From: a virus
DNA: 64,000 nucleotides
Strand: one strand, 5' to 3'
Virus record (IMG/VR): IMGVR_UViG_3300042868_013265
Span: 20,421-84,420 of that record
A model generated the notes under the pieces. It made no database searches and was not told the DNA's origin. It saw nothing but the letters and a program-made list of their open reading frames with translations. The translations under genes and the position numbers were made by a program. Below are positions 3,956-31,548 of this stretch, one piece after another. The first letter of the stretch is position 1. Each line of letters opens with the position of its first letter.

Positions 3956-3974
3956 AAAATAAAGAAATACGAAT

Positions 3975-6900
3975 ATGAATAATCAAGCAAAAATCAAACT
4001 TGAGAAGATAAAAAAACTGAAACTCCCTGAAAAAGTAAGGGCTACAGCAGACAAAATTGAAAAAGGTTTGTCAAGTGAAGACGCGGCTACTCAAAAGAAG
4101 GCTGAAGATGCATTGAATAAACTTTATGAACAAATCAAAGCAGTTGCGGCTAAACAGCGCGAAGAAAAAACGGAAAAAGAAGTCAATGAAAAGACGATTG
4201 TTCCTCAAAACGCTGACATCGCGGCTCCTGAAGTTAAAAAAGAGTTAACAAAAAAAACCACGGTTGCAGATGAGATTATTGATAAGGCATTAAAAAACGA
4301 CCCTGAACTTGCGGGATTTGGAAAATCAGATAAGCGCAGAGACGCGGGTCGTAAAGCACTTCCTGCGGGTAGACGTGTATCTAAAAAAGGATGGAAAAAT
4401 CAATATGGTAAATCTGATGGTGGACGTGTGTATTACGAAAACCGTGAAAACCGTAAAGACCGTAAAAGTCCTGCGTACAAAGCAGGATATCCTTTTTTGG
4501 CCAAAGGGGGTAAAATTCACCCTATGGATGACGAAGACGGAACTTTTTATGTAAACCTTTACAAAACTAAAGGAGACCAAATTGTTTCAGTGGATGAGCG
4601 CGAATACAATTCTAAAGCATCGGCTATGACTTATGCGATGATGAAACGCGATTTTATGAAAGTTGGTGAAAGCATATTTGTTATGAATGATGACGGTGAT
4701 GTGTTGTACACTTCAATCGGTACCAAAAAAATGGCTATGGGAGGCAAATTCCCTTATCAAAATGCTCAAGTGGGAGATAATGCTCGAGTAATTCTTGACA
4801 ATAAAATGGGAACTATTATGGTGGCTTATGGCCGTAGATTCCATTTGAAATTCCCTGATGGAACTGAAAAGACATATTCCGCTGAGGAATTGGAATTTTT
4901 TCCGACGGATGAAATGATGGCTGATGGTGGTAATATTGGAAATCCAACATTCGTAGTTAAAAACTTAGACGGAAAAGTTGTTTTGAAAACTAAAAGTTTA
5001 AATAAAGCATCGGATTATCACGGTTTACTCGGTAGGGATACTCATACGGTTGAAACTCTTGACGGCAGAATATTGAGTGGTTCAAGTGATGATATGGCCG
5101 ATGGTGGAATGATGCCTAATAGTGGTAAAAAATATGATTATTCTGAGTATTTCGACTTTAATGCTAAAGGTAATTTTGCATCTAATTTAAATGGTAAAAA
5201 TTACGAAATAATTTATCGTGATGACAAATCTAAAATGTATGATTTGTTTGAAGATGGGAAAAAGATAAAAAGTAGTATGTATGTTCTAAATTTAATGTTT
5301 TTTCCTGATGAGAGGAGGGAGTATTTTCAAGGTACTATGAGTGATGATGCTTTAAAAAGTATTTTAGATTATGAATATCCTAATAATAGTTTTTCTGTTG
5401 AGTATGATTCAATATCAGGGACAAAAATTTATGGAGCAAAATCCAACCTTTTAAAGGCACAAGCCAAACTCAAAGATATTTATAAAATGAAAACCACATT
5501 GATGGGTGAAAATCAAATAGGTAAGAATTATTTATCCGTTCCTTCACAATTTGTGTATTTTGCTAAAGGTGGTATGATGGCCAAAGGTGGCTATATGGCG
5601 AAAGACGAAAATTATGAGTATGTAAATACATTCAACTATTATGATAGCAATGTTCCTGTACCTCAGGATGATTTTGAAAAATTGATTGATGCTTATCACA
5701 AAAAACTTTCAGGTGATAAACTTGATGAGGCCAAATACAATGTATTGAAAATTCAAATGGGTAACTATTTGGGCCATAAAACAGTTGACAAAATGGAAGA
5801 ATACATTGAAAAAACACACAATGCACACAAAATGGCAAAAGGTGGCTATGTTTCCAAAAGAGATGTTGAAGCAATCACTATCATAAATCCAAATAAAAGT
5901 GATTCCGCAAAGAAATATTTGACATTTAAGAGTGGTGAATTCCTTAATGGATTAAATCAGTTTGAGAAAGGTGGAAAATTGATTGATAATTACACTTACA
6001 TCAAGCGAGGTGATATTTTTGCTGTTTATTACAAGGACAAAACTAAAAAAGCCTATTTCCAAACTACGATGGAAGATAAACCTAAAAATGGTTTTTGGGT
6101 CAGCAAAAAGGCTTTAATTAGAGAGGGTGGAAAAACGCCAAGTAAGTCAAGTGCAACTTTTGATGCTTACGAATCATATGATGAATTATCCAAGTTGAAT
6201 GGCAAAATTTGGGACAAATTAAAAATTGAAAGTGGCAGTCAAATTTATGCTTCGGACTCATTACAAAAGAAATTGGCTATTGAGTATCCAAATTCAGGTA
6301 TTGATGCCAAATTCAAAAGTTTGAAAGCCGCTCAAAGAAAAAAAGTTGCTGAAGTTATGACCGATGAAAACGAGCATAGTTTACGTAATTATTTGACACT
6401 ACGAGGATACCTTGGACCAAAAGAATATGACAGTTATGAAAGAATATTTGACCCAAAAAGTCGGTATGTATTAAATCCTGATAATTTCAAAAATTATACT
6501 GCTGATAAGGTGAAAGTTGGTTCAATTTTAACTACAAAAACAGGTACAAAAGTAAAGGTAGTTGAATACAATCCTCAATACGGAGTGAAGGCTATACGAA
6601 TGGATGCGACTGCAGCCGATAAGCCATCTCAATATATAGAATTGTCAAAATTTAAAGGATTTGAAAAAATGGCTGATGGAGGTTCTATTGGTTTTGAGGC
6701 ACTTTCCAAAAAAGTTGCATCGAGGTATGCGGGCAAAAATGTAAAGCCTAAATATCAAAAAGAATATGGAAAGACCTATGACAAGGCTGAAGCAAAAGAA
6801 GTCGGTGACAAAGTAGCGGCAAAAGTGTACCGTATGCAGCAAGGTAAAATGGCCTCAGGTGGTAAAATTGAATTGCCTCATCAATTGGACAAATACTTTA

Positions 6901-7259
6901 CAAAGCCCGCAGGTACAATCGAAGTTGAAATGAGTAAATTAATTCCGATTCGTGCACGAAAAAGCGGTATTGAGAATGCAGAAGTGTATATGAAAAAGGC
7001 TTACGATGGCGAAATGTCGAAGCGTAAACCTATTGAAATTTACAAGACGCGCAATAAAAAGTATCGCGTGAACGATGGAAATAGCACTTTTGCCGTTGCT
7101 AAAAAGAATGGTTGGGAAACGATTTATGCTACCGTAGTTTCCAATCCAAACGTCACAAAACGCGCGGAAAAAAGTACATTTACAATAGCAAAAGAAATAA
7201 GAAAAGCAGGTGAAAGTTGGTCGGATGCAGTTAAAAGAGTAAAGGAAAACAGAAAATGA
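3975..7259 (+). CDS. Polyvalent-type multidomain protein with MA(x)GG-separated modules and a C-terminal ParB-like domain
   Basis: The 1094-residue protein opens with a charged helical region (1-120), then a Lys/Arg/Tyr-rich stretch with ENRENRKDRK. From about residue 175 it is divided by a recurring motif: LAKGG (175), MAMGG (253), MMADGG (314), DMADGG (374), FAKGG and MAKGG (530-540), KMAKGG (620), FEKGG (664), KMADGG (899) and KMASGG (958). Segments between motifs are 45-235 residues and at least one looks SH3/KOW-like (255-310). The last about 130 residues resemble a ParB/Srx nuclease-fold domain (MSKLIPIRAR, then YRVNDGNSTFAVAKKNG) followed by an IRKAGESW-x-DAVKR tail. Such architectures match polyvalent proteins of phages and conjugative elements that enter the cell with the DNA. 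That the GG motifs are cleavage sites is inference. It overlaps the next gene by ATGA. Confidence 0.8.
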   Translation: MNNQAKIKLEKIKKLKLPEKVRATADKIEKGLSSEDAATQKKAEDALNKLYEQIKAVAAKQREEKTEKEVNEKTIVPQNADIAAPEVKKELTKKTTVADEIIDKALKNDPELAGFGKSDKRRDAGRKALPAGRRVSKKGWKNQYGKSDGGRVYYENRENRKDRKSPAYKAGYPFLAKGGKIHPMDDEDGTFYVNLYKTKGDQIVSVDEREYNSKASAMTYAMMKRDFMKVGESIFVMNDDGDVLYTSIGTKKMAMGGKFPYQNAQVGDNARVILDNKMGTIMVAYGRRFHLKFPDGTEKTYSAEELEFFPTDEMMADGGNIGNPTFVVKNLDGKVVLKTKSLNKASDYHGLLGRDTHTVETLDGRILSGSSDDMADGGMMPNSGKKYDYSEYFDFNAKGNFASNLNGKNYEIIYRDDKSKMYDLFEDGKKIKSSMYVLNLMFFPDERREYFQGTMSDDALKSILDYEYPNNSFSVEYDSISGTKIYGAKSNLLKAQAKLKDIYKMKTTLMGENQIGKNYLSVPSQFVYFAKGGMMAKGGYMAKDENYEYVNTFNYYDSNVPVPQDDFEKLIDAYHKKLSGDKLDEAKYNVLKIQMGNYLGHKTVDKMEEYIEKTHNAHKMAKGGYVSKRDVEAITIINPNKSDSAKKYLTFKSGEFLNGLNQFEKGGKLIDNYTYIKRGDIFAVYYKDKTKKAYFQTTMEDKPKNGFWVSKKALIREGGKTPSKSSATFDAYESYDELSKLNGKIWDKLKIESGSQIYASDSLQKKLAIEYPNSGIDAKFKSLKAAQRKKVAEVMTDENEHSLRNYLTLRGYLGPKEYDSYERIFDPKSRYVLNPDNFKNYTADKVKVGSILTTKTGTKVKVVEYNPQYGVKAIRMDATAADKPSQYIELSKFKGFEKMADGGSIGFEALSKKVASRYAGKNVKPKYQKEYGKTYDKAEAKEVGDKVAAKVYRMQQGKMASGGKIELPHQLDKYFTKPAGTIEVEMSKLIPIRARKSGIENAEVYMKKAYDGEMSKRKPIEIYKTRNKKYRVNDGNSTFAVAKKNGWETIYATVVSNPNVTKRAEKSTFTIAKEIRKAGESWSDAVKRVKENRK

Positions 7260-8371
7260 AACTATTAAAATTAACTAAACAGGAAGTCGCAAAACTTCAA
7301 AAGCAATATAAATTTGGTTCTGATTTGACCAAACAGGATGTAGTTGTCAAAATTTTTAATCCATATGGTCGCGGCAGATGGTATTTGGTAAACCAAGACC
7401 CTGATGACCCTGATTATATTTGGGCAATCGTAGATATGGGAATGGGACCTGAGGTTGGCTCGGTAAGTTTAAGCGAACTACAAAACTTTCGAATGCCTGT
7501 ATATGGGTATAAATTTCCTTTGGAAAAGGACAGGTTTACACAACGGAACGCTGTTGAAGTGATTGAAGGATTACAGCGAGGAAACTATTTTGCAGATGGT
7601 GGTGAAATTAAGGTCAAAGTTGCATCCAAAGATATTTACAACAAAAATCACTACAGGGGTATTTTTCAAGATTCCGATAAGGATGGTGTTCCTGACATAG
7701 ATGATTTGCAGCCTAAAAATCCCAAATTACAGGGTGAAGTTGAAGAGTTAAAGTTTTCTCAAGTCTTTGAACGATTGCTCAGAACAAAAAAGTCTTTGGA
7801 CAAAATTATGAGGGCGGCCATCGCAGAACTTGAAGCAATTTCTCCCGCAGGAAGCACAATTTATGCAAGAACTAAAACTCCATACTCAATTGTCAATAAA
7901 TTGATAAATAAAAAGTCTACAAGTCTTGAAAGGACGAAGTTAGGCGATGTCGAGGGTTTGACGGATTTAATTGGAACTACGGTAGTTGTGAAAAGTTTGG
8001 ATGACATTAATGATGTAGCAAAAGAATTGGATAAGGGAGTATTAGGTGAGATTTTGGAGAAAAAAGATTACTATGAAAAACCAAAAGCGGGATATCGCGC
8101 GATTCACTACATTACAATTTTTGAGGGTGTCGCGATTGAAGTTCAATTAAAAACTTATCGTCAGAAAGAAATAAATGAGGCTTCGCACGAGGCTTATAAA
8201 TATGAAAATCTTGAAGCGGACCGTTTATTGTATTTAACCAATTTGGCAAATGAGGCTGACAAAGGAAATAGAAAAGCACAACTTGCAATTGACAAGATAT
8301 TCCTTGATAAAAAAGCATTGAAGGAATCTTTGTACAAGGACAAAATCAGACGAAATAAATTACCTTCGTAA
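7256..8371 (+). CDS. DUF2958 + Ca-binding loop + RelA/SpoT-like domain protein
   Basis: The 371-residue protein has three parts. Residues about 5-105 match DUF2958 (VVVKIFNPYGRGRWY, EVGSVSLSEL), a module frequent in phage and plasmid polyvalent proteins. A FADGG motif near 113 is the same linker seen in the preceding gene. A calcium-type loop DSDKDGVPDIDD sits at about 139-150. Residues about 165-330 match the RelA/SpoT nucleotidyltransferase fold: ARTKTPYSIVNKL, DLIGTTVVV (about 237-246), KPKAGYRAIHY (about 276-286), IEVQLKT (about 294-300). The Asp and the EVQ glutamate needed for (p)ppGpp synthesis are kept, but the Arg normally found in DxxGxR is Thr. It may make an alarmone-like nucleotide, act as a toxin, or be inactive. 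It is coupled to the upstream gene by ATGA. Confidence 0.8.
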   Translation: MKLLKLTKQEVAKLQKQYKFGSDLTKQDVVVKIFNPYGRGRWYLVNQDPDDPDYIWAIVDMGMGPEVGSVSLSELQNFRMPVYGYKFPLEKDRFTQRNAVEVIEGLQRGNYFADGGEIKVKVASKDIYNKNHYRGIFQDSDKDGVPDIDDLQPKNPKLQGEVEELKFSQVFERLLRTKKSLDKIMRAAIAELEAISPAGSTIYARTKTPYSIVNKLINKKSTSLERTKLGDVEGLTDLIGTTVVVKSLDDINDVAKELDKGVLGEILEKKDYYEKPKAGYRAIHYITIFEGVAIEVQLKTYRQKEINEASHEAYKYENLEADRLLYLTNLANEADKGNRKAQLAIDKIFLDKKALKESLYKDKIRRNKLPS

Positions 8372-13669: not shown

Positions 13670-14491
13670 ATGAGAGAACCATTATTGGGCGTAGCCGTCG
13701 GAAAGAAAGGGGTAGGGAAAACCTTTACAACCAATAGGGTGATTAAACAATATGTGATGGGTAATCCCGCTTCGGGAATTATGCCAAGAAAAGTTTTGAT
13801 TTTAGATGCAAACGATGAATATACTGAGTATAAGGCAATTGCATTAAAGGATTTGATGTTGTTTAGTGTACACCCTTTGGTTGAAGCAAGAAGAATTAGA
13901 CCGATTCACCCCGACGGTAAAAAAATGACCTTGGATGATTTGGCTGCTACGTTGAATTATATTTTGGAGGTATTTTCAGGGGGCCTATTATTGATTGAAG
14001 ACATTAATCGATTTACTTCTGATTTTATGCCACAAGATTTAATGGGAGCGATTGCGACGAATCGACATCGTGACTTGGACATCATTTTACACTATCAAGG
14101 TATAGGTCGTATTGGAACGAAGGTATGGCAAAATATCAATTGGCTAAGGATGCATAAAATTACGGAGTCCGCAATCAGGCACGCCAAAAAGTTTGAAGAT
14201 AAATATGAGATAATCCGTATATGCGAATTGATGGTAAACATTCAGTATTTTTTGGGTAACGAAAGGACTTTTCAGTACATCGATTGTGAGAATATGTGTT
14301 TTCAAGGTAAGGTGGATGAAAAACTATTTGCAGATGCTTGTAAGCAATATTTGGAGGAAAATTATCGTAGAATTATTTCACCACTTTTACAGATTCGTGG
14401 TGTGGGTGATAAAAAGAAATTTACTGCAGATACCGCAATGAAGTCTGAGATGGAAAGATTGCGTAAAATGTATTTAAAAAGGCAAGTGTAA
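13670..14491 (+). CDS. FtsK/HerA-type P-loop ATPase, probable genome-packaging motor
   Basis: The 273-residue protein has Walker A GKKGVGKT at 11-18, the early strand VLILDANDEYTEY (about 43-55) typical of HerA-related packaging ATPases, Walker B GGLLLIEDINRF (about 104-115) and a following NRHRDLDIILHYQG region. The length is close to the 200-300 residues usual for packaging ATPases of tailless membrane-containing viruses, and it lacks the nuclease domain of tailed-phage terminases. It would power DNA translocation into a preformed capsid. It is followed by a strong terminator and then the capsid candidate, a gene order seen in PRD1/PM2-like viruses. A plasmid-transfer or Zot-like role is the main alternative. 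Confidence 0.8.
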   Translation: MREPLLGVAVGKKGVGKTFTTNRVIKQYVMGNPASGIMPRKVLILDANDEYTEYKAIALKDLMLFSVHPLVEARRIRPIHPDGKKMTLDDLAATLNYILEVFSGGLLLIEDINRFTSDFMPQDLMGAIATNRHRDLDIILHYQGIGRIGTKVWQNINWLRMHKITESAIRHAKKFEDKYEIIRICELMVNIQYFLGNERTFQYIDCENMCFQGKVDEKLFADACKQYLEENYRRIISPLLQIRGVGDKKKFTADTAMKSEMERLRKMYLKRQV

Positions 14492-14829: not shown

Positions 14830-15531
14830 ATGAATAATGTCCGTAAATACCTTGCTGACGCACAAAATCGTGCTCACGAGGGCTTCTTGAATGCCGATGG
14901 CTTCTTTGATGACGATTTGAACTTCACCGCAGGTGATGATTTTATGAATGCAAATGGCAACGACGCTATGCCTGCTGCCGCTCCAACCTCACAACCTTAC
15001 ATCATTCAAATTTCTAACACAGGTTCTGCTGTTGCGAATTTCAGTGTATTGGGTTCTTACGAGCAGTTGGGTGATACTGCAGCATTTACTTCGGGTAACT
15101 TTATATCAGGAGACGTGACTATTTCGTCTGCTATTCCAAACGTAACCTATCAGCAAATGTTGTATCAGTTTATGAACAACCCTTTCAGCACAGGTTTGAC
15201 TTACATTCAGTCTTCTTCAAACACACAGTTGTTGGAAACAATCAGTGTGCAAACTAAAGACGCGAATGGTAACGTGGCCCAAAAGCCTTTGGTGCCTACT
15301 ATTGACCCATATCAGTTTCAGACTACCGTCCTTGCTCTCCGTTTCGGATACAGAATTGACGGTTACACTAAATTGATTTTGAATTCAATTTTGGCTTCAA
15401 CCACCGTGAAGTTGTATCTGTACCCTGCAGACAACATCAACTTGGCTCGTGGATTGTCAGGACGCGCTGTATCAAAAGATTTCAGCAGCCCAGGCATTGT
15501 ACGTGCTCAAACCGTGAAAATCCAAGGTTAA
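14830..15531 (+). CDS. Candidate major capsid protein (beta-rich, jelly-roll-like)
   Basis: The 233-residue protein has a flexible N-terminal arm (1-55) with NADGFF and an Ala/Pro stretch, then a run of short alternating strands (PYIIQISNTGSAVANFSVLG; ETISVQTKDANG; FQTTVLALRFGYRIDG; TTVKLYLYPAD). This is consistent with a single or compact jelly roll. There is no membrane segment and few charged patches. Position supports the call: it has its own transcript between two strong terminators, with an A-rich leader, directly after the packaging ATPase. The C-terminus (SKDFSSPGIVRAQTVKIQ) is echoed at the N-terminus of the membrane protein at 17170. At 233 residues it would be short for a double jelly roll, so the fold needs structure prediction. 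Confidence 0.6.
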   Translation: MNNVRKYLADAQNRAHEGFLNADGFFDDDLNFTAGDDFMNANGNDAMPAAAPTSQPYIIQISNTGSAVANFSVLGSYEQLGDTAAFTSGNFISGDVTISSAIPNVTYQQMLYQFMNNPFSTGLTYIQSSSNTQLLETISVQTKDANGNVAQKPLVPTIDPYQFQTTVLALRFGYRIDGYTKLILNSILASTTVKLYLYPADNINLARGLSGRAVSKDFSSPGIVRAQTVKIQG

Positions 15532-15552
15532 TCCCTTTTTTACGATTTATAG

Positions 15553-15591
15553 AAAAGGGGCGATGGCACACAGCCTCGCCCCTTTTTTTTT
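15553..15591 (+). terminator. Strong rho-independent terminator after the capsid candidate
   Basis: AAAAGGGGCGA pairs with TCGCCCCTTTT, with an extra GGC/GCC inner stem and a single bulged T, followed by a T run. It is among the strongest hairpins in the window and closes the two-gene unit 14678-15531. Confidence 0.85.
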
Positions 15592-15613
15592 AATAGGCTA
15601 AAATCAAATAATT

Positions 15614-15784
15614 ATGGCATATAAAGTCAAATTGGGTAACAAGGATTACTTCTCAGAAGAATTTTCTTCAGAGACGGAAGCAAAAAAAGCAAAGTATTTC
15701 GCCATTGTAGGTGCAAAAACTTTTCGCAGTGCATCGAAATCGATGGACACAAAAATTGTAAAAGTTGTAAAAAAGAAAAAATAA
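15614..15784 (+). CDS. Small basic protein (56 aa)
   Basis: The 56-residue frame starts MAYKVKLGNKDYFS and ends with a poly-basic tail (KVVKKKK), and its stop overlaps the next start (TAATGA). The first half could form a short beta hairpin, followed by a helix with SETEAKKAKYFA. There is no membrane segment. The basic tail suggests contact with DNA or acidic membrane. It lies below usual gene-length cut-offs but is tightly packed. Confidence 0.6.
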   Translation: MAYKVKLGNKDYFSEEFSSETEAKKAKYFAIVGAKTFRSASKSMDTKIVKVVKKKK

Positions 15785-16167
15785 TGACAATCTACGAGTA
15801 TATCGCAAGAAACAATCCGATGGGTGCTAAAAGAGTAATTGAATCTTTTGGCTATGTGGTAACACAACCTAAAAAAATGGGCGATAACCTTCGTATGTTG
15901 GTTGCGCAAGAAGGAGAGCCCGCTTTAAAAGCAGTCGTTGATTTACATCCTGATAAAGACTTAATTTTAGAAGTTTTCGGGAATAGTCAAAGTGTTAAAG
16001 CAACGGGTGAAAATTTCTTTGGAGCCGATGGTCTACTTCAAAGCGCAGTTTTAAATAACAACCAACAGCAAAATGACAGCAACAATAAAATGGTGCTTCA
16101 AACAAACACATTAATTGTGGCCTTATCACTCCTTGTAGTTGCAGGGTTAATATTAAAGAATCGATGA
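15784..16167 (+). CDS. C-terminally anchored membrane protein
   Basis: The 127-residue protein has a helical globular head (1-90; IYEYIARNNPMGAKRVIESFG), a Gln/Asn-rich linker and one C-terminal membrane segment (about 106-123, TLIVALSLLVVAGLIL) ending in KNR. A FFGADGLL motif in the linker region recalls the NADGG-like motifs of other proteins in this cluster. It overlaps its neighbours by one and four bases. It is probably a virion protein whose head contacts the capsid shell. Confidence 0.7.
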   Translation: MTIYEYIARNNPMGAKRVIESFGYVVTQPKKMGDNLRMLVAQEGEPALKAVVDLHPDKDLILEVFGNSQSVKATGENFFGADGLLQSAVLNNNQQQNDSNNKMVLQTNTLIVALSLLVVAGLILKNR

Positions 16168-16766
16168 AAAATTTGAAACCTAACGAAATTTACGCTGTAT
16201 CAGCGATGACAATTGACAACAATACTGAAGGGGTAAAAACCCTGATTACAAAGTATGGTGTCATTTTGCCAAACAATGCAAGTCGAAGTGATATTGACAA
16301 AGCATTTGCAGCCCTTTTAAGAAAGAGTAAATCTTTCCGCAACGATTTTGCTGTATTGGCGGCAAATGAAAGTCAGAAGAGCGAAAACTTCTCAAATTTT
16401 ATGGAATTTTTAGGTATGTCAGGAAGAGGTATTGGAACAGCAAGTGCTCCTTTAAAAACTCCCGACCCAATTCCTGTAAAAACAAGTTTACCGAACACAA
16501 CTGCAAAAAAACCAAGTGCATTTGCGGAAGCATTTGATGCTGACACAATTAGAAACGTCATCAATACGGGATTAAATATTTGGGCTACCCGCTCAGGTAC
16601 TACAGCCTCAACTACAAATGATTTACAATCAGGTAGGGAATCTTTGAATTTACAACCCCAAAGTCAACAAACACGTGGTATTGGAACGACGGGAATCGTT
16701 TTGATTTCAATTGGTGCACTTGCAGCGGTAGGTGTTTTGATTTATTACCTATCTAAAAACAAATGA
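16164..16766 (+). CDS. C-terminally anchored membrane protein
   Basis: The 200-residue protein has an N-terminal helical domain (about 1-85; AFAALLRKSKSFRNDFAVLAA), a long Pro/Thr/Ser linker (about 90-165) and one membrane segment (about 173-195, IVLISIGALAAVGVLIYYL) with the basic end SKNK. It shares its layout with the preceding gene, and the two may be distant paralogues. No catalytic motif is visible. It overlaps the upstream gene by four bases. Confidence 0.7.
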   Translation: MKNLKPNEIYAVSAMTIDNNTEGVKTLITKYGVILPNNASRSDIDKAFAALLRKSKSFRNDFAVLAANESQKSENFSNFMEFLGMSGRGIGTASAPLKTPDPIPVKTSLPNTTAKKPSAFAEAFDADTIRNVINTGLNIWATRSGTTASTTNDLQSGRESLNLQPQSQQTRGIGTTGIVLISIGALAAVGVLIYYLSKNK

Positions 16767-16767
16767 T

Positions 16768-16941
16768 ATGGAAAATAAAGATTATACCAAAGTCGTTGGA
16801 TACTCTCAAATAGGTGGTGCCATAGGTATCATTTATGCATTTTCAACAAAATCAGGATTCTTCAAAGGGGTCGGCTATTATTTAGTTGGGTCTTTTGTTG
16901 CAGGACTGATTGCATCAGGTGTGACCGCAGTAAAGAAATAA
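16768..16941 (+). CDS. Small two-segment membrane protein (57 aa)
   Basis: The 57-residue frame starts at ATG 16768, one base after the previous stop, and its stop overlaps the next ATG. Gly-rich hydrophobic segments lie at about 10-25 (GYSQIGGAIGIIYAFS) and 36-53 (GYYLVGSFVAGLIASGV), with a basic VKK end. Glycine-zipper-like spacing suggests tight helix packing. It is probably a virion-membrane component and could form oligomers. Confidence 0.6.
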   Translation: MENKDYTKVVGYSQIGGAIGIIYAFSTKSGFFKGVGYYLVGSFVAGLIASGVTAVKK

Positions 16942-17165
16942 TGGCAAACGAATTTCAAGACGCTTTAGACAATGTTAAAGAACTGAGTGGACAATCTACT
17001 CACGATACCTTTTTGAAGCAAAGCAAGCGCATTATGAAGGGCAGTGCTACAGGTCTTGTTGTTGGTTTGATGTATGGATGGTACACGAAAAAAAATATTT
17101 ATGTAACTGCAATACTTGGAGTAATTGCAGGAGGCGCGGTTAATTACTTTATTTTCTCAGAATAA
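16941..17165 (+). CDS. Small two-segment membrane protein (74 aa)
   Basis: The 74-residue protein has an N-terminal amphipathic acidic helix (1-30) and a Gly-rich hydrophobic hairpin (about 34-49 GSATGLVVGLMYGWYT and 54-72 VTAILGVIAGGAVNYFIF) separated by KKN. The hairpin resembles that of the preceding gene, so the two probably work together. It follows with a one-base overlap. Confidence 0.65.
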   Translation: MANEFQDALDNVKELSGQSTHDTFLKQSKRIMKGSATGLVVGLMYGWYTKKNIYVTAILGVIAGGAVNYFIFSE

Positions 17166-17169
17166 AATT

Positions 17170-17577
17170 ATGACTTTAGATTCAGCGATAAAATATAAAG
17201 ATTTTTCGAACCCAAATATAGTTCGTGCAAGGCCAATTAATATACAAATGGCCAATGATGACTATTTTTCTGTAGCGGGTCCTGCGGGCGCAACACAATT
17301 AAAACTCACCAAGGTTTTGACTGTAAAAAATGCTCAGGGTAAAAATACGAATTATGAGGTGGGTTCAGTTGTTTGGGCGTTCCCTATTCAAACCATCGCC
17401 AAATCAAATAGTTATGTTTTTACAACGGAAGGTCAAGGGTATATTTTGACTGTAGGTGTTAACGCTGAAATTTATAATCAAAAAGAGTCTAAAGAGACAA
17501 AAAAAGGTTTTCCTTTTTCTTTAGTCGGATTAGCCTTAATCGGAATAGTAATAATTTATACAATGAAAAAATTATGA
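17170..17577 (+). CDS. Membrane-anchored protein sharing a motif with the capsid candidate
   Basis: I choose ATG 17170, giving 135 residues. The longer frame from 17125 would run inside the previous gene. Residues 8-24 (KYKDFSNPNIVRARPINIQ) closely match the C-terminus of the capsid candidate (SKDFSSPGIVRAQTVKIQ). A beta-rich domain follows (about 30-105), then a membrane segment (about 113-131, FSLVGLALIGIVIIYT) with a KKL end. The shared segment could be a common binding peptide or a conserved strand, making this a capsid-to-membrane connector candidate. Confidence 0.7.
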   Translation: MTLDSAIKYKDFSNPNIVRARPINIQMANDDYFSVAGPAGATQLKLTKVLTVKNAQGKNTNYEVGSVVWAFPIQTIAKSNSYVFTTEGQGYILTVGVNAEIYNQKESKETKKGFPFSLVGLALIGIVIIYTMKKL

Positions 17578-17675
17578 AAACAGCGAATGATGAAAAGAAA
17601 AAAGGTGGTGCGTTGATGCTTGTAGGTTTTGCGATGCTCGCCTATGTTGTTTATAAAATAATCGAAAGTAAATGA
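17574..17675 (+). CDS. Mini membrane protein (33 aa)
   Basis: The 33-residue frame starts at an ATG overlapping the previous stop (ATGA) and ends overlapping the next ATG by four bases. It is built as a charged head (MKTANDEKKKGG), one membrane segment (about 13-29, ALMLVGFAMLAYVVYKI) and IESK. Coupling at both ends is the main support. Confidence 0.6.
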   Translation: MKTANDEKKKGGALMLVGFAMLAYVVYKIIESK

Positions 17676-17896
17676 AAAAAGAATATATTGAAGCCCTCGT
17701 TTTAATTGGAGCCATTGGATTGGCTATTTACTTAGCAAGTTCTAAGGACTCCGTATTGAAAAGTGCAAAATCAAATTCTCCAACACCGACAGGACCAAAA
17801 GGCGGTTTTGAGAATTTCACTGCAGACGAATTAACTTATGACGACCATTTGTATGGAAATGCAGATGGAGGATTAAAAGGTTTAACATTTAAATAA
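17672..17896 (+). CDS. N-anchored small protein with NADGG motif
   Basis: The 74-residue protein has one membrane segment near the N-terminus (about 7-23, ALVLIGAIGLAIYLA) followed by a polar tail with a Pro/Thr linker and the end YGNADGGLKGLTFK. The NADGG resembles the MA(x)GG motifs elsewhere in the window. It overlaps the previous gene by four bases. Confidence 0.65.
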   Translation: MKKEYIEALVLIGAIGLAIYLASSKDSVLKSAKSNSPTPTGPKGGFENFTADELTYDDHLYGNADGGLKGLTFK

Positions 17897-18501: not shown

Positions 18502-18783
18502 ATGTTGTCAGCAAATAAACTATACAAGGAATCAGGTACCACTTTGTCTTTCAAAGAATGGTTGGAGCGTGAAAAGGCAAAAGGCAAATTCATTCCCAAC
18601 GTGGAAGCGATGGAAGAGTTTGTGAATGCCGATGGTGGAACTTCAGAGCAAGCCTCTGAGCAACCCGAAATCACAGCGAAATCAGTTGAGAATAAACAGA
18701 TGTTTACCTCGATTGCTCGAGTAGGTTTAATTGTTGTATTGACATACTTCGTTTATCGAACTATCAAAAATGAAATTAAGTAA
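18502..18783 (+). CDS. C-anchored small protein with NADGG motif
   Basis: I choose ATG 18502, just after the previous stop, giving 93 residues. The frame from TTG 18487 would overlap the previous gene. The N-terminal 45 residues include KLYKESGTTLSFKEWLE, a short pattern common in small Bacteroidota-phage proteins, then NADGGTSEQ and one membrane segment (about 73-90, IARVGLIVVLTYFVYRTI). It overlaps the next gene by 14 bases. Confidence 0.65.
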   Translation: MLSANKLYKESGTTLSFKEWLEREKAKGKFIPNVEAMEEFVNADGGTSEQASEQPEITAKSVENKQMFTSIARVGLIVVLTYFVYRTIKNEIK

Positions 18784-18994
18784 TACTCAAATAAAGCGCA
18801 TCATTATTGCAGGGGGATTTTTCTTCCTGCTTTTGCGCTTTAGAGGATACTTAAATCCCTCAAAAGAAACATTGTCGGCAAAAGACGATAGTGTTTCTGC
18901 AAATGGTACCAAATCGGTAATCGACAGAGCGATTCACAAAGTAAAAAGTGGCGCGGTAAAAGTTGCAAGCACACCATCTGAAATAAAAAACTGA
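18770..18994 (+). CDS. N-anchored small protein
   Basis: The 74-residue protein has a basic N-terminus (KLSNTQIKR), one membrane segment (about 10-24, IIIAGGFFFLLLRF) and a polar tail with SANGTKSVID and a helical, basic stretch. Its stop overlaps the start of the metallopeptidase gene (TGATGA). It is probably membrane-structural, with no catalytic motif. Confidence 0.6.
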   Translation: MKLSNTQIKRIIIAGGFFFLLLRFRGYLNPSKETLSAKDDSVSANGTKSVIDRAIHKVKSGAVKVASTPSEIKN

Positions 18995-19776
18995 TGAAAG
19001 AACAAAGAATTGCAACAAAATATGCTCCACTTACGCTGTGTGTGGTTTTGAAAACTGAATTCCCTACCAAATTAAACTTGGTGGTGTTTGATGCAAAAAA
19101 TCCGAAGAGGAAGTTTACTGAGCGTTACAAAACAGTAACAGGGGAAGAAACGCTGTTTGTTCGAATGCCGTTATCTCCTGACACCGCTGTTGTTCAGGTG
19201 TTTGGAGGCGCGGGGATTACAAAAAAGAATGATTCCAATTTTACTATTGTAAGAGTTTACAAAAAAGGGTTGGAGCGTCGATTTGATTTGAATGATATTG
19301 GGAACCCCCAAATACGTTCATTCGTCAAATTCGCGCAGAAATTTTGTTTTAATGTGAGTGAATTAGAGCCTGAAGAAACTTATCGAAGTGATGACGGAGA
19401 ATATTTCATTCAGTTAAAGCAACAAATCAGAGATGCAAATGGAAAAGTGTTGGGTACTCCCGCACGTATTGGCCGTCAGACGGGGGTTATTCAAGTGAGT
19501 AAAACACAATTTGAAGCCTTTACAATTCCTATGCGAATGGCAATATTGCTCCACGAATTTTCACATTTTTACTTAAATGAAAAAATGGATGATGAAATGG
19601 AGGCAGACTTAAATGGATTGTTGATTTATCTCGGACTTGGATATCCAAGGATTGAGGCTTATCAAGCGTTTCTTGAAACATTCAAAAATGCACCAAGCAA
19701 CTTGAATAAAAAACGCTATGATATGATTAATAACTTCATCAACAATTTTGAAAAAATGGACATTGTAATAAAATAG
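18994..19776 (+). CDS. HExxH zinc metallopeptidase, candidate virion protease
   Basis: The 260-residue protein has a beta-rich N-terminal half (about 10-90). The peptidase core has ILLHEFSHFYL with zinc-binding His187 and His191 and catalytic Glu188, followed by DEMEADLNG, where ExxAD supplies the third ligand as in ImmA/IrrE- and M48-like gluzincins. No signal peptide or membrane segment is present. It lies in the middle of the virion-membrane cluster. It could process virion precursors (the GG-motif proteins are candidates) or act on host envelope proteins during entry. Substrate and timing are inferred from position only, but the catalytic motif is clear. Confidence 0.75.
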   Translation: MKEQRIATKYAPLTLCVVLKTEFPTKLNLVVFDAKNPKRKFTERYKTVTGEETLFVRMPLSPDTAVVQVFGGAGITKKNDSNFTIVRVYKKGLERRFDLNDIGNPQIRSFVKFAQKFCFNVSELEPEETYRSDDGEYFIQLKQQIRDANGKVLGTPARIGRQTGVIQVSKTQFEAFTIPMRMAILLHEFSHFYLNEKMDDEMEADLNGLLIYLGLGYPRIEAYQAFLETFKNAPSNLNKKRYDMINNFINNFEKMDIVIK

Positions 19777-24887: not shown

Positions 24888-25651
24888 CCAATATTTTAAC
24901 CACGAGTTTAGGAAGAAACATTAATACCGTAGAGGGTAATGGTCTTGCTATATTCGTTGACGACACGGATTTCGTGTTGAAGTTAAAAGACGTTGATGGC
25001 AATATACAACCTGTAACAGACTTCACAGGTAGCGGTGGAACGAGCGGTGGTGGAATACAATCCATCAATGCCTTGACAGCACCCGCGCAATTTTTGGTGA
25101 CAGGTACTTCAGGAAATGATTTTGCGGTACAGTCTTCAGGCAATACACATACCTTTAATTTGCCAAATGCGAGTACAAGCGCACGAGGTGTAGTTAGCAC
25201 GGGCCCACAAACAATCAAAGGGATAAAAACATTTACAGACAATGCATTTTTTCAAGGCGATGTTGATATTTTAGGTACGCTTACAGCGGAAGCAAAATCG
25301 TTCTTGATTCCACACCCCGACCCTGACAAACAAGGGTGGGATTTACAACACGGAAACTTGGAGGGTGGCGAACACGGTATTTATCACCGTGGCCGTCTTC
25401 AGGGGACAAATATGATATATCTACCTTCATATTGGAAGTTTTTGGTGAGTCAGCATACCATTACGGTACACTTGACAAGTGCCAAAGGCAACTTCAATTA
25501 TTTCGTAGAAGATGTGACTTTAGAAACTATTAGAATTGCAAAATCCGAGGGTGATTGGTACTCTTATGATTGCTATTTTATAATTCACGCTGAAAGACGA
25601 GATATTGGCAAATTGAAGGTGGAAATTACACCTCAAGAAAAGCAATATTGA
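24884..25651 (+). CDS. Fibre/receptor-binding protein
   Basis: The 255-residue protein has an N-terminal attachment module shared with the preceding gene (about 1-45), a short GGTSGGG hinge, and the phage-fibre motif TSARGVVSTGPQTIKGIKTF (about 98-117). The C-terminal domain includes FLIPHPDPDKQGWDLQHGNL and GEHGIYHRGRL, a module I associate with phage structural proteins. It is probably a trimeric spike recognising the host surface. Its stop overlaps the start of the first glycosyltransferase gene by one base, placing the sugar enzymes in the fibre operon. Confidence 0.75.
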   Translation: MTNILTTSLGRNINTVEGNGLAIFVDDTDFVLKLKDVDGNIQPVTDFTGSGGTSGGGIQSINALTAPAQFLVTGTSGNDFAVQSSGNTHTFNLPNASTSARGVVSTGPQTIKGIKTFTDNAFFQGDVDILGTLTAEAKSFLIPHPDPDKQGWDLQHGNLEGGEHGIYHRGRLQGTNMIYLPSYWKFLVSQHTITVHLTSAKGNFNYFVEDVTLETIRIAKSEGDWYSYDCYFIIHAERRDIGKLKVEITPQEKQY

Positions 25652-27627
25652 TGAAAAAAATACTCCATTTAATTCCTCACCTGAGCACGGGTGGGTGCCC
25701 CCAATTCGCTTACGATTTATTAAGAAAAACCAAAGATACCACAGATGCTTATGTGGTTGAATATGCATTTATTGCTTGGGACTATGTTGTGCAAAGAAAT
25801 CGAATTATCGATTTGATGCAAGACAGATTTTTTTCTTTAGGAGAGCAGAAGGAGCAACTCTTTGACATTATTGATACGATTAAGCCCGATGTCATTCATA
25901 TTCAAGAATTCCCTGAATATTTTATGGACGATGAAATCGCGCGTAAATTGTACAATAAGAATCGAGAATATGTAATTGTAGAAACGAGTCACGACAGTGG
26001 ATTTAATCCCGCGAATAAGCGGTTTTTCTCAGACCATTTAGCATTGATAAGCCAATGGCAAATTGATAAATTCAAGGATTATGAAATACCGATTACTCTG
26101 TTAGAAAGTGACATTGAATACAAAACCAAAATTCCCAATCAGAGGGAACAAGGGTTATTAAAACTTGGATTGGACCCCAATAAAAAACACGTTTTGAACG
26201 TGGGTCTTTGGACAAGTAGAAAAAACCAAGCGGAAGCCTTACAGTATGCGAAAGAACTTGAATGGTGTTCTGATATCCAATTTCATTTTATTGGGAATCA
26301 GGCTCCTAATTTTGAGAATTATTGGGCTCCGTTGATGCACGACTTACCATCAAATGTGCAAGTTTGGGGTGAGAGGAGCGATGTGCATTCATTTTATGAG
26401 TGTATGGACCTGTTCCTCTTCACATCGCGAGGCACAAATGGCGATATGGAAACAAGTCCGTTGGTTCTCAGAGAGGCAACAGGACATCAAATGCCGATAC
26501 TGATGTACAACCTCCCTGTGTATCTGAATTACTATGATAGGTTTTCGAACGTTAATTACCTCAGCGATTTCACAACCAACAAAAATTTAATTTTGTCACT
26601 ATTGAAAATTGAAGAAGAATCTTCAAGCGAATTATTCAAATTTGATTACGCAATTGCTGATAATAAAATTTTCATCAACTATCAAAAAGACAGCAAAATC
26701 GAGGTTTGGTTTTCAATATGCGATACTGATACCAAACACGCAATTTATGCTTTCAAAGGGCAATTTGAATACAAATCTTCGATGTGGGTAATCCCTATCC
26801 CAAAAGATACTTTTGACACTATATACAACTCCAAAGGCAATTTCAGAGGTTTTGAAATATCTGTTTGGGACAGTTTGCAAGAGAACAAATTAGACAGCGA
26901 AATTATTTGGTTCAATCAGACTTTACCCATCCCAAATTTTAGAGTATTTGAAACAAATCCTTGGAATTTTACTTGGTCTAATTACAATGAAATGTTCATT
27001 GATAAATATTATGAAAAAACCAACATTGTAGTTGGTAAGGTTTGCTTAGATATTGGGGCAAATGATGGTTTATTTACTGAATGGTTAATTAGTCAAGGTG
27101 TTGAGAAAATTTATGCGATTGAATGCGACCCAAGGTGTATAAAATTTTTAAATAAAAAATTCAACTCAAATAAAAATGTGACTGTAATAAACAAGGCTCT
27201 ATGGAAAGAAAATCAAAGTGAAATGAAACTTTATTATGTTGATGACACCTCGGTTTTTAGTAGTTTGAAAGAAGAAGGTAATTGTAAGGGTAAGAATTAT
27301 TATGATGTTTGTTCTTGGGATTTTGAAACATTAATTAGTAAACACAACATCAATCAAATAGACTTATTTAAAATAGATATCGAGGGTGCGGAATATGAAG
27401 TATTTGAATCGATGACTGATGAGCAAATTAGTAAAATAAATTCGTTTTTGATTGAAATCCATTTAAATACAAATGGTCAAGTTTATAAAATAACTGATAG
27501 ATTCAAAATGTTAGGTTATGAAATACAGTTCAGAGAGCATAAAAATAACAGTTTGATAAATAATGAATTGGAATGGAAAAATTATGAATGGGCTTATTTA
27601 ACAGCAACCAAAAAAGTAAATTATTAA
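25651..27627 (+). CDS. Bifunctional glycosyltransferase - FkbM methyltransferase
   Basis: The 658-residue protein starts at ATG 25651, since the preceding in-frame TTG adds nothing. The N-terminal half (about 1-310) resembles a GT4-like GT-B glycosyltransferase: ILHLIPHLSTGG opening, KHVLNVGLWTSRKNQAEAL and ETSPLVLREATGHQMPIL. A beta-rich domain of about 120 residues (HAIYAFKGQFEYKSSMW) follows. The C-terminal part is an FkbM-type SAM methyltransferase with CLDIGANDGLFTEWL (about 466) and DLFKIDIEGAEYEVFES (about 571). FkbM enzymes usually O-methylate sugars. The beta + FkbM half is paralogous to the start of the next gene. Confidence 0.85.
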   Translation: MKKILHLIPHLSTGGCPQFAYDLLRKTKDTTDAYVVEYAFIAWDYVVQRNRIIDLMQDRFFSLGEQKEQLFDIIDTIKPDVIHIQEFPEYFMDDEIARKLYNKNREYVIVETSHDSGFNPANKRFFSDHLALISQWQIDKFKDYEIPITLLESDIEYKTKIPNQREQGLLKLGLDPNKKHVLNVGLWTSRKNQAEALQYAKELEWCSDIQFHFIGNQAPNFENYWAPLMHDLPSNVQVWGERSDVHSFYECMDLFLFTSRGTNGDMETSPLVLREATGHQMPILMYNLPVYLNYYDRFSNVNYLSDFTTNKNLILSLLKIEEESSSELFKFDYAIADNKIFINYQKDSKIEVWFSICDTDTKHAIYAFKGQFEYKSSMWVIPIPKDTFDTIYNSKGNFRGFEISVWDSLQENKLDSEIIWFNQTLPIPNFRVFETNPWNFTWSNYNEMFIDKYYEKTNIVVGKVCLDIGANDGLFTEWLISQGVEKIYAIECDPRCIKFLNKKFNSNKNVTVINKALWKENQSEMKLYYVDDTSVFSSLKEEGNCKGKNYYDVCSWDFETLISKHNINQIDLFKIDIEGAEYEVFESMTDEQISKINSFLIEIHLNTNGQVYKITDRFKMLGYEIQFREHKNNSLINNELEWKNYEWAYLTATKKVNY

Positions 27628-27637
27628 AATTAAATAT

Positions 27638-29401
27638 ATGACAAACATAGCAACCCCTTTATTTAGAGTAGAGTATGAAAAAGACGGCAACAAAATTTTT
27701 GTTTACTATCAAAATGAAAAACCAATTGATGTAAGTATATCCGTAGCAGACATCGATTCAAAACACGCGATTTATGCATTTGACTCTCATTTTAGAGATT
27801 ATTCAGGCTGTTGGAATGTTCCTGTACCTGTAGCCGCTTTGAATCATTACAATCGGACAGGATACTTTAGGGGATATGAGGTTTCGATTTACACTTCGGA
27901 TAGACTTACTCTGTTGGAACAACATACGATTTGGTATAATGAAAACGCTCCAAAATTTGATAGAGTATTATTCCCTACTGACCCTTGGAATTTGACTTGG
28001 ATTAATTACACGGAAATGTTTGTTGAAGACTTCTACAACCCGCTTCAAATGAACATCAATGGAGTTTGTTTGGATATTGGCGCAAATGATGGTCTATACA
28101 CAGAATATTTGCTTCGTAATGGAGCAGAACGGGTTTATGCAGTAGAATGTGACCCCCGTAGTATAAAGTTCCTTAACAAGCGTTTTAATGGCGATAAAAG
28201 GGTAGTTGTGGTTGACAAAGGATTATGGAATGCAAACCAAAATGGTGTAAAGTTGGCTTACAAAGAGGACACGAGCACAGTTTCATCTATCAAGACTGAA
28301 GTTCATCACTTTGATGAAAACAATTATTTTTACATTGATACTTGGGATTATGCGACTTTGAAGAGCAAAATGAATATCAGTAAAGTTGATTTTTTCAAGA
28401 TTGATATTGAAGGTGCTGAATATGAAGTTTTCGAATCAATGACCGATGATGACATTTGTGAAATTGAAGGTTTTATGGTCGAGATTCATTGGAATTCAAA
28501 TGGCCGTATTTATGGTATCACTGATAGACTTGAGAAATTAGGTTATTCAATTGAACTTCGCAGACATACGGTGGACAATGCCGTAGTAGAGAACCGTGAC
28601 GAATGGAAAGATTACGACCTATGCACATTCTACGCTTCAAAAAAAAAAGAGCCACGGAAGTTTAGTTTAAGCATCCATCATTTGCAAACGAGTCTTTTTA
28701 CTGATGTTGAAAGGCAAAGTCGTGACAAAATTGATTATTTAATTCATTTGTTGAAGAAAGATTCTCGTTTTAGTGAGGTCTATTGGAGTCGTCATATCAA
28801 TACTCCTTGGAAGGAATTACCAACTAAAGAGAATTGTAAAAGACCAAATGCGTTGTCGATGGAAAAATTTCCAAATGGCATAAATGAATATGGAGAAACT
28901 GCGCTGACACCCGCTCACTATGGCTGCTTTAGAGCATTTAATGATGCTATTCAGATGCATTTCAACAAGGACTATTCAGCGACGTTGATATTTGAGGGTG
29001 ACGCGGATATTCGAGATGTGTATTCGTTTATTGAATGCCTATACCTTGCCCTGTGTGAGGCAGACAAAAATGAAATAGATTTCATTTCATTTGGAGGAGC
29101 GTATCATTTGGAGACAGGCGAATTATTAGCACATCCCGTGGAGAGAATTGATTCCTTAAATTTTGGGTGGATTTCAAAACACGTTCCATTTGCACATTCG
29201 ATAATTATTCCTCAGAGATACATCAAACAGATGATGCACGCCTTTGCAACTGAGCCTTGGGATGTTGCTGATTTATTTTTTATGAATCATTTTAATATGC
29301 ATCCAAACAGGAGACAATTTGTAAGCGAAATTCAACTGAGTCATCAAATTGATGGATATTCATTAATCGATAAAAAAGTCAAAAATTACTTAATCAAATG
29401 A
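27638..29401 (+). CDS. Bifunctional FkbM methyltransferase - GT25-like glycosyltransferase
   Basis: The 587-residue protein begins with the same beta-rich domain as the preceding gene (HAIYAFDSHFRDYSGCW; FRGYEVSIY), then FkbM methyltransferase motifs CLDIGANDGLYTEYL (about 145) and DFFKIDIEGAEYEVFES (about 252). From about residue 345 a second enzyme begins: LTPAHYGCFRAFNDAI and TLIFEGDADI fit the LTxxxxGC and acidic (EDDA-like) metal/nucleotide site of GT25/LPS-type glycosyltransferases. It follows the previous gene by ten bases and overlaps the next by four. The most likely acceptors are sugars on the neighbouring fibre, though host or virion glycans are possible. Confidence 0.8.
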   Translation: MTNIATPLFRVEYEKDGNKIFVYYQNEKPIDVSISVADIDSKHAIYAFDSHFRDYSGCWNVPVPVAALNHYNRTGYFRGYEVSIYTSDRLTLLEQHTIWYNENAPKFDRVLFPTDPWNLTWINYTEMFVEDFYNPLQMNINGVCLDIGANDGLYTEYLLRNGAERVYAVECDPRSIKFLNKRFNGDKRVVVVDKGLWNANQNGVKLAYKEDTSTVSSIKTEVHHFDENNYFYIDTWDYATLKSKMNISKVDFFKIDIEGAEYEVFESMTDDDICEIEGFMVEIHWNSNGRIYGITDRLEKLGYSIELRRHTVDNAVVENRDEWKDYDLCTFYASKKKEPRKFSLSIHHLQTSLFTDVERQSRDKIDYLIHLLKKDSRFSEVYWSRHINTPWKELPTKENCKRPNALSMEKFPNGINEYGETALTPAHYGCFRAFNDAIQMHFNKDYSATLIFEGDADIRDVYSFIECLYLALCEADKNEIDFISFGGAYHLETGELLAHPVERIDSLNFGWISKHVPFAHSIIIPQRYIKQMMHAFATEPWDVADLFFMNHFNMHPNRRQFVSEIQLSHQIDGYSLIDKKVKNYLIK

Positions 29402-31548
29402 GAATAGCACATATTCAACCAAGCGTAATTTCAGTCCCCCCTAACGGATGGGGGGCAATTGAAAAAATCATTTGGGAATACAAAATGGTTTTGAATCAGT
29501 TAGGACACGTCTGCGAAGTAGTCAATTTGCAGGATTTGAAGGCTGAAGAATGGGATATCATCCATTGCCATATGTTTGACCAAGCATTATGGTTGGCTGA
29601 ACAAAAAGTTCCATATTTTTATTCGCACCACGACCATCATTCGATGGTTTGGGGTGAAGAAAGTGCTAATTATCAATTAAATCTAAAAGCAATGAGACTT
29701 GCTGAGATTGCCTTTGTTCACGCACAAAGTAGTATTGAGATGTTTAAAAATATCCCTTATTATTTGAGTCACGGTGTGAATACTGAATTCTTTGATTTTA
29801 TAAGGCCGAAAAATATTGATGAACCGAATATTATTATTGTCGGGAACAATGGTTTGGCGGGAACTGAGCAAGTCTTTGACCGAAAAGGTTTCAGGTATGC
29901 AATTGAGGCCGCACGTGAATTAAAATGGACAATTACTATGGTTGGTCCCAAAGCAACCCAAGAACAGTTTCTGAAGGAAAATCCCGATTTGCAGTATGAA
30001 AAACTAAGGTTGGTTTTTGATGCGGACGAGGAGCGGTTGAAGAAAGAATTACAGAATGCTCATTTAATGATTCACGCTACGTTTGTAGAGGCAGGTCATC
30101 CACCTTTAACACCTTTGGAAGCAATGTCTTGCGGGGTCCCTGTAATTGGTACACCAATGGGTATTGATGTGCCTCAAATAATATGTGAAAGAACTACCGA
30201 AAGCGTAGTAGAAGGAATTAAACAATTCGTATTTCAAAGAAATTCATTAATTGCAGAAGCACGCCTAATTGCTGAAAATTACGATTGGAAAATTATTGTT
30301 GAAAATAATTTATTGAAATGGTATTTTCAGGTCTTGGACCGAAACAATATGGCTAATACGGCCCGTAGAATTTACCATCAATCGACCATAAATAAAGTGC
30401 AAGACACTATGATGTTCAAGTACTTAGATGGTGCGAGAGTGGATTTGGTTGGTAGTAGCGATAAAACGTATAAGGCCGAACTTTCGGTTCGGGATGAGCA
30501 CTTAGGAATTATTTTCAGTGCAGATTTAAAATGCGGTATGTATGCTCAGGGTGCAATGAAATATCATAGATATTGGGAATGGAAAATTACGGATGAAAAA
30601 GGGAACGAATTTTTACATCCATATGATGCGACGGACAAACGTGTTTATGTGGCGATTGAAAGTTCAAGTTTAGGAGACTCTTTGGCTTGGGTCCCAATAG
30701 TTGATGAGTTTAGAAAGGTGCACAATTGCAAAATGATTATCAGCACTTTTTGGAACGATATGTTCAGGGATGCATACCCTGAAATGGAATTTATCAGGGC
30801 GGGAACACCCGTTAATAATATTTATGCAATGTACAGGATTGGTTGGTATTACGAGAACGACGGTTTAGAGGTACATTATGGACATCACTCACGCGATTTC
30901 CGCAAATTTTCTTTGCAAGGTACAGCCTGTGATATTTTAGGTCTTCCTGACATCGAAATAAAACCAAAATTAAAGGAAATTGAAGGGCAAAAAAATGATA
31001 AAAAATATGTAGTTATTGCACCTCACGCTTCGAGCCATTGTAAATATTGGCACAACGAAGAAGGATGGTCTAAAGTTGTCGAATTTTTAAACGAGTTAGG
31101 TTATGAGGTTTGGAACATCTCAAAGGAGTCTGCATCAAGCGATTGGGAGAATTCTAAGTTGCCAAAAAATGCATTAAAAAACGTAATTGATAAGACGGGA
31201 GACATACATATAGACGAAAGGATTTCTCAAATAAAATCCTCATCTTTGTTTATTGGATTAGGAAGCGGACTTTCTTGGTTGGCTTGGGCCTGTGATACAC
31301 CTGTTGTTCTGATAAGTGGTTTCTCACGGCCTATAAGCGAATTTAGTGATTGCACCCGCGTTTTTAATCAAAATGTGTGTAATGGATGCTTTAACGATTA
31401 CAGGCTTGACGCGGGTAATTGGAATTGGTGCCCTAAATATGAAAATACTGACAAAATGTATGAATGCAGTAAGTCAATTACACCTGAACAGGTAATTGAC
31501 GCAATTAGGAAAACACTAAACAAGCACCAAACAGCACCCGATGGCTAA
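29398..31548 (+). CDS. GT4-like glycosyltransferase fused to Aah/TibC-type autotransporter heptosyltransferase
   Basis: The 716-residue protein has an N-terminal GT4-like unit (about 1-320; RIAHIQPSVISVPP opening, VEAGHPPLTPLEAMSCGVPV). The C-terminal half (about 335-705) follows the Aah/TibC family order: a small barrel (MMFKYLDGARVDLVGS; YHRYWEWKI), IESSSLGDSLAWVP, TFWNDMF, IAPHASSHCKYWHNEEGW, LFIGLGSGLSWLAWACDTPV and ISGFSRP. Four cysteines, C661-x2-C664, C678 and C690, match the iron-finger of TibC-type enzymes. Known members heptosylate serines in autotransporter adhesin repeats. Here the gene overlaps the giant Ser/Thr-rich fibre gene by 8 bases, making that fibre the obvious acceptor. 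The sugar donor is unknown. Confidence 0.85.
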   Translation: MRIAHIQPSVISVPPNGWGAIEKIIWEYKMVLNQLGHVCEVVNLQDLKAEEWDIIHCHMFDQALWLAEQKVPYFYSHHDHHSMVWGEESANYQLNLKAMRLAEIAFVHAQSSIEMFKNIPYYLSHGVNTEFFDFIRPKNIDEPNIIIVGNNGLAGTEQVFDRKGFRYAIEAARELKWTITMVGPKATQEQFLKENPDLQYEKLRLVFDADEERLKKELQNAHLMIHATFVEAGHPPLTPLEAMSCGVPVIGTPMGIDVPQIICERTTESVVEGIKQFVFQRNSLIAEARLIAENYDWKIIVENNLLKWYFQVLDRNNMANTARRIYHQSTINKVQDTMMFKYLDGARVDLVGSSDKTYKAELSVRDEHLGIIFSADLKCGMYAQGAMKYHRYWEWKITDEKGNEFLHPYDATDKRVYVAIESSSLGDSLAWVPIVDEFRKVHNCKMIISTFWNDMFRDAYPEMEFIRAGTPVNNIYAMYRIGWYYENDGLEVHYGHHSRDFRKFSLQGTACDILGLPDIEIKPKLKEIEGQKNDKKYVVIAPHASSHCKYWHNEEGWSKVVEFLNELGYEVWNISKESASSDWENSKLPKNALKNVIDKTGDIHIDERISQIKSSSLFIGLGSGLSWLAWACDTPVVLISGFSRPISEFSDCTRVFNQNVCNGCFNDYRLDAGNWNWCPKYENTDKMYECSKSITPEQVIDAIRKTLNKHQTAPDG

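Follow-up and report, generated by a model that had tools for sequence, protein, structure and literature searches.

The window, the whole 64,000-nucleotide stretch analysed here, starts at base 20421 of a virus record of 84,420 bases and runs to its end (84420). It contains a gene for a capsid candidate that adjoins the gene of a P-loop ATPase, and small ORFs, most of them with one C-terminal hydrophobic helix, run on downstream (Table 1). The ATPase gave weak matches to AAA_22 and HerA DUF87 in Pfam, below the curated cut-offs, and matched a terminase family in PHROGs (E 0.001). Searches of Pfam, PHROGs, PDB sequences and 50,697 phage records returned no match for the capsid candidate, and the same phage records contained no sequence match for the ATPase or the metallopeptidase. 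The source virus is unclassified and probably tailless, and in the literature searched we found no described group that it matches. The genome has numerous small ORFs with C-terminal anchors as well as PAP2 and GDSL enzymes, which would fit a membrane-containing virion.

The remaining gene content includes a collagen-like protein that matches tail-fibre PHROGs via its repeats. This 5,338-aa GSSGTSG ORF (31541-47557) alone forms a 45-56% GC island in a genome otherwise of 33-41% GC, and the repeats presumably account for the 4,618-aa antisense open frame within it (33469-47325). We also observed, in a virus, a DUF2958 domain fused to a RelA/SpoT synthetase-like domain (7256-8371; Pfam 3.8e-16). 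Many genes of the glycosyltransferase and FkbM-methyltransferase types (25648-29401, 63215-63856 and positions 1-6000 of the related locus L062) perhaps serve to decorate fibres or the host surface.

Table 1. Features of the window discussed in the text, with their positions and supporting observations
Feature	Position	Strand	Basis or remark
P-loop ATPase, candidate packaging ATPase	13670..14491	+	next to capsid gene; conserved family of 40
Capsid candidate, 233 aa	14830..15531	+	ORF, homologues, AlphaFold, jelly-roll-like matches
Capsid domains: N-terminal arm (1-50), jelly-roll-like core (about 52-201), C-terminal arm (202-233)			
Capsid C-terminal segment KDFSSPGIVRAQTVKIQG	15475..15528	+	kept in all full-length close homologues
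p17, 135 aa: N-terminal capsid-tail-like module, ~85-aa middle domain, C-terminal transmembrane anchor	17170..17577	+	
Shared segment KDFSNPNIVRARPINIQ in p17	17197..17247	+	tail profile, 30-aa tail query
Predicted transmembrane helix of p17 (FPFSLVGLALIGIVIIYTM)	17509..17565	+	hydropathy
Small anchor ORF (MKTANDEKKKGGALMLVGFAMLAYVVYKIIESK)	17574..17675	+	relative fused to p17 module in L005
Short capsid-core paralogue, 149 aa	49836..50285	+	without N-terminal arm and tail segment

The capsid candidate and its C-terminal arm

The capsid family in IMG/VR comprised 17 loci when queried with a single sequence and 40 when queried with an alignment, and a further homologue was found on one contig of a Lake Lanier MAG. 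AlphaFold monomer models, run twice (11 sequences, then 36), predicted residues 52-201 as a beta-sandwich (pLDDT mostly 72-94) and both arms as disordered (about 15-52 and 203-233; pLDDT <50). Foldseek and VIA-align matches of the core mixed jelly-roll capsid domains, including the second barrel of PRD1/PR772 P3 and the shells of satellite TMV, comovirus and picornavirus, with unrelated sandwiches, many of which were tied, and the best Z of 7.0 does not rise above background. Because unrelated sandwiches match too, we call the core no more than 'jelly-roll-like', and a jelly-roll capsid identity for the 233-aa protein is inferred.

The short capsid-core paralogue of the window matched a 150-aa family encoded at L014-L017 (E 3e-12) and is possibly a penton or second capsid protein; L017 and L044 share one contig, and hence one genome can carry both capsid forms. 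Extra diverged paralogues without the tail segment lie upstream of the main capsid gene at L013 (4784-5434, just ahead of the ATPase gene) and L049 (3682-4302). Since the short paralogues of the window and L013 have no arm, the arm is an add-on to the capsid core.

The capsid candidate ends in SKDFSSPGIVRAQTVKIQG, of which KDFSSPGIVRAQTVKIQ forms the last 17 aligned residues; the shared part, from K to Q, occupies 15475-15525 and is followed by G and the stop codon (15529-15531). This tail is kept in ~34 distinct capsid homologues, with identity down to 43%, and most of them follow the pattern [KR]x[FY]xxPx[IV]V. P221 is invariant, as are, slightly upstream in the arm, R207, L209 and G211, and Q227 is found in 86%. 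The first-pass annotation had suggested a shared docking peptide or strand, which is plausible in that the tail is conserved yet extended and of low confidence in the monomer, with alternating hydrophobic residues at its end. Such lack of order in monomer models is expected for an arm that a partner orders.

Resemblance of the capsid tail to the N-terminal module of p17

p17 begins at the ATG at 17170 with MTLDSAIKYKDFSNPNIVRARPINIQ, and it has neither a Pfam family nor a PHROG match with E below 0.2. Its highest 19-residue hydropathy (2.21, residues 114-132) agrees with the membrane anchor assigned to it in the first-pass annotation, which had also described a segment shared by the two proteins at opposite ends. 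Both observations hold: the segment is C-terminal in the capsid candidate and close to the N terminus in p17, and KDFSSPGIVRAQTVKIQ and KDFSNPNIVRARPINIQ are identical at 11/17 positions (BLOSUM62 ungapped score 58). The DNA of the two segments agrees at 32/57 bases, and the same codon is used at 5/11 identical residues (4.6 expected from codon usage); with synonymous positions thus randomised, recent DNA duplication or gene conversion is excluded.

We then assessed how far the resemblance exceeds chance. When the 72 proteins called in the window were compared all against all without gaps, capsid/p17 ranked as the best pair after true FkbM-methyltransferase paralogues; the observed score was 58, and three shuffled sets peaked at 58, 50 and 64, so that by this in-window search alone the match is not significant. 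A tail PSSM built leaving out the window's own tail was scanned over the 5,299 ORFs of all loci that do not encode the capsid protein. The window p17 came first (23.7) and its L003 orthologue second (18.1), the next real ORF scoring 12.9. The maximum over 52,990 shuffled ORFs (19.9) was exceeded by the window p17 only, and the L003 hit by itself is not clear of it. Empirical shuffle counts were used here because Gumbel fits of the shuffled scores, which would give a top-hit E of ~0.9, were too heavy-tailed (ORF lengths differ). When a 30-aa tail query was run in six frames against 18 records, it found a second place in its own genome (E=0.0028) and in that of L003 (E=0.026); the remaining 16 records, several of them fragments, gave no second place at E<=10. 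Neither the window nor the record's first 20 kb contains another tail copy. With relatives included, the resemblance is confirmed as real.

Convergence or chance would mean that alike basic-aromatic-proline-hydrophobic segments are each kept for an unrelated reason. Although shuffled sets do reach such scores in the all-pairs search, only three independent p17 sequences exist and the [FY]xxPxIVR core is short, we consider this explanation unlikely in view of the first two profile ranks, a top hit above every shuffle, the E value in the whole genome and the recurrence of the pattern in three genomes.

Two other look-alikes were set aside. The candidate third copy in orf12683 (QRDYTKPNVDYSQVNA) scored 9-10.6 bits individually with a family mean of 1.53 and is not significant. 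LRAT-like proteins of L014-L017 carry YVSPQVLRW before a helix (mean 9.65, n=4) and were not counted as copies because this motif lies in an NCEHFV context, presumably the enzymes' own, and the capsid relatives at L014-L017 have no tail.

Constraint and distribution of the p17 module

The three independent p17 sequences are those of the window (shared with L001 and L002), L003 (64%) and L005 (shared with L004). Between the window and L003, residues 1-26 are identical at 24/26 positions and the remainder at 65/109 (Fisher p ~0.001). Codons 1-26 contain 2 replacements and 8 synonymous changes, compared with 44 replacements in the other 109 positions, which indicates purifying selection on the module; both copies of the segment are under selective constraint. 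The segment is kept in capsid homologues generally and in all three known p17-type homologues, so that the check proposed in the first-pass annotation, conservation in homologues of either protein, did not refute its idea. These data also bear on the idea that the capsid gene was long ago duplicated in part, at its 3' end, and that the p17 N terminus is a relic of this with no docking role now. The two genes do share direction and an operon-like run, with 1.6 kb between them, but the residues have been preserved through randomised codon choice, and no part of p17 is better conserved than the module, which hence has a function; a relic is very improbable.

At L005, just the first 22-30 residues of p17 remain (MTIDSAVIEKSYQDPNIVRPRP; first 22, E 6e-4), directly followed by GADGSL, as is the module in L003. 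The L005 protein aligned with scores of 72 to the window p17 and 87 to the L003 p17, and its module sits on a different body, made up of a short linker plus an anchor whose relative in the window is the small anchor ORF (local alignment score 77; shuffled maximum 41). The module therefore occurs on two different anchored bodies and was kept while the body was exchanged. It has drifted in L005 to a KxYxxPxIVR core, with a profile score (9.4) that is alone within noise. At the aromatic position, F or Y, tail and module agree in all three carrier genomes. The arm's most conserved upper part (R207, L209, G211) is absent from p17, and R replaces the common Q227.

A tail-like segment on a membrane protein is limited to the window/L001/L002, L003 and L004/L005, and these carriers (window, L003, L005) form one clade of the capsid tree (support 96/89). 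L006, L008-L010, L013 and L028-L034 have the capsid tail and no detectable second copy; most relatives are without p17, and the other relatives examined have different ORFs at its position. On present evidence, the membrane-protein segment is a clade-specific addition, an innovation of one clade. The link between capsid and membrane raised in the first-pass annotation is accordingly tenable for the carriers but does not extend further: judged by the relatives without a copy, the segment is not a general capsid-membrane linker.

A possible docking role and comparison with known systems

The usual partner of an extended capsid arm is an adjacent subunit of the virion. We tentatively propose (probability about 0.4) that p17 carries a mimic of the capsid C-terminal arm, docks at the same site and ties the shell to the membrane. 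The conserved extended arm of the capsid candidate, with a turn and a short strand-like stretch last, would bind a partner site in the shell. p17, held in the membrane by its C-terminal helix, would present a near-copy of the arm's distal half and insert it at a capsid site otherwise taken by the capsid arm, and the underlying membrane would be tied to the shell at some positions. The presence of p17 in the virion, a common binding site, a groove and the tethering role are what we infer. To our knowledge, the fixing of shell to vesicle in membrane-containing phages is known for few viruses and mostly involves dedicated vertex or cement proteins. If the proposal is true, a membrane protein with a capsid-arm mimic would join shell and membrane in a simple way that can be read from sequence, and capsid-contacting membrane proteins of uncultured viruses could be predicted by searching for capsid-arm copies.

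The main rival is a shared recognition tag, in which one third protein (an assembly factor, a scaffold-like protein such as orf12683, or a maturation peptidase) would read both peptides and p17 would not occupy the capsid-arm site. Sequence data cannot distinguish the binding partner, and GADGSL right after the module in L003 and L005 would suit a tag, as would the weak RDYTKPNVDYSQ look-alike in orf12683, had it been significant over its family. Another motif, [FY]xxA[DN]G, is also common to virion-type proteins, so shared linear tags do occur in these viruses; processing or targeting tags are, however, less often found at the very C terminus of one protein and N-terminally in another, and we regard this reading as somewhat unlikely.

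[FY]xxA[DN]G was counted 91 times in the virion-type proteins of these viruses against 5.6 expected from shuffles, a count that includes orthologues and overstates the independent cases. It occurs in several unrelated families (the capsid candidate, 15784-16167, 17672-17896, 18502-18783, 60446-60958 and relatives), for example as GFLNADG, DFMNANG, NFFGADG, LYGNADGG and EFVNADGG, and may mark sites of cleavage during maturation or be a further docking motif held in common. Within the virion gene run, a conserved protein with HEFSH, an HExxH-type zinc peptidase signature (18994-19776; no Pfam match), is a candidate maturation protease for these sites. This motif may prove a more interesting lead than the capsid/p17 segment. 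A second shared terminal peptide was observed in relatives of orf18006 (L006:10590-11099, L007:8382-8903, L008:10719-11246 and L010:11577-12146), which end in LxLENLVRSWNRP-like tails; orf60446 of the window (60446-60958) ends in SLENLVRSYKRP, and the window's own orf18006 ends differently, in KFLGFVGSRPKFEFN. The sharing of short peptides between proteins may be characteristic of these viruses. A broader and doubtful extension would be an undescribed lineage of large jelly-roll viruses (contigs to ~100 kb) whose anchored proteins acquire interchangeable capsid-arm copies, an evolvable shell-membrane peptide code movable between bodies.

The window was compared in three respects with Varidnaviria-type tailless membrane-containing phages (single jelly-roll, Helvetiavirae-like). 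Against their vertical jelly-roll major capsid protein stands a core predicted as jelly-roll-like, with Z no higher than 7.0; against their FtsK/HerA-type packaging ATPase beside the capsid gene stand the AAA_22 and HerA DUF87 matches below cut-off and the terminase-family match; and against their internal lipid membrane and tailless virion stand the small anchored ORFs, the PAP2 and GDSL enzymes and the tail-fibre PHROG matches of the collagen-like repeats. Among known viruses, the second jelly-roll of PRD1/PR772 P3 was one of the top core matches (Z 5.7-5.8, rmsd 3.8-4.2, ~105 residues aligned), with a Z within the sandwich-fold background, and the sequences did not match; the protein here has a single barrel and P3 two. 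In the single jelly-roll viruses HCIV-1/HHIV-2, VP7 N-terminal residues lie under neighbouring VP4, and the C-terminally anchored membrane proteins VP10/VP13 organise capsomers and vertices (PMC6414509). The likeness lies in small jelly-roll capsid arms in inter-subunit contacts and small proteins with C-terminal transmembrane helices beneath the shell; the VP7 arm is N-terminal, a peptide shared by capsid and membrane protein is not mentioned in the passages considered, and we found no sequence relation to the virus described here. In adenovirus, the N-terminal peptides of pVI and pVII compete for the same hexon pocket (reviewed in PMC8156859). There, the sites lie in the hexon cavity and neither peptide derives from the capsid protein, whereas here the C-terminal arm of the capsid protein itself is one copy and a membrane-anchored protein carries the other, and their binding to a common site would be the counterpart of the pVI/pVII case. 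As in such shared-docking-peptide pairs, the peptides of two different proteins resemble each other.
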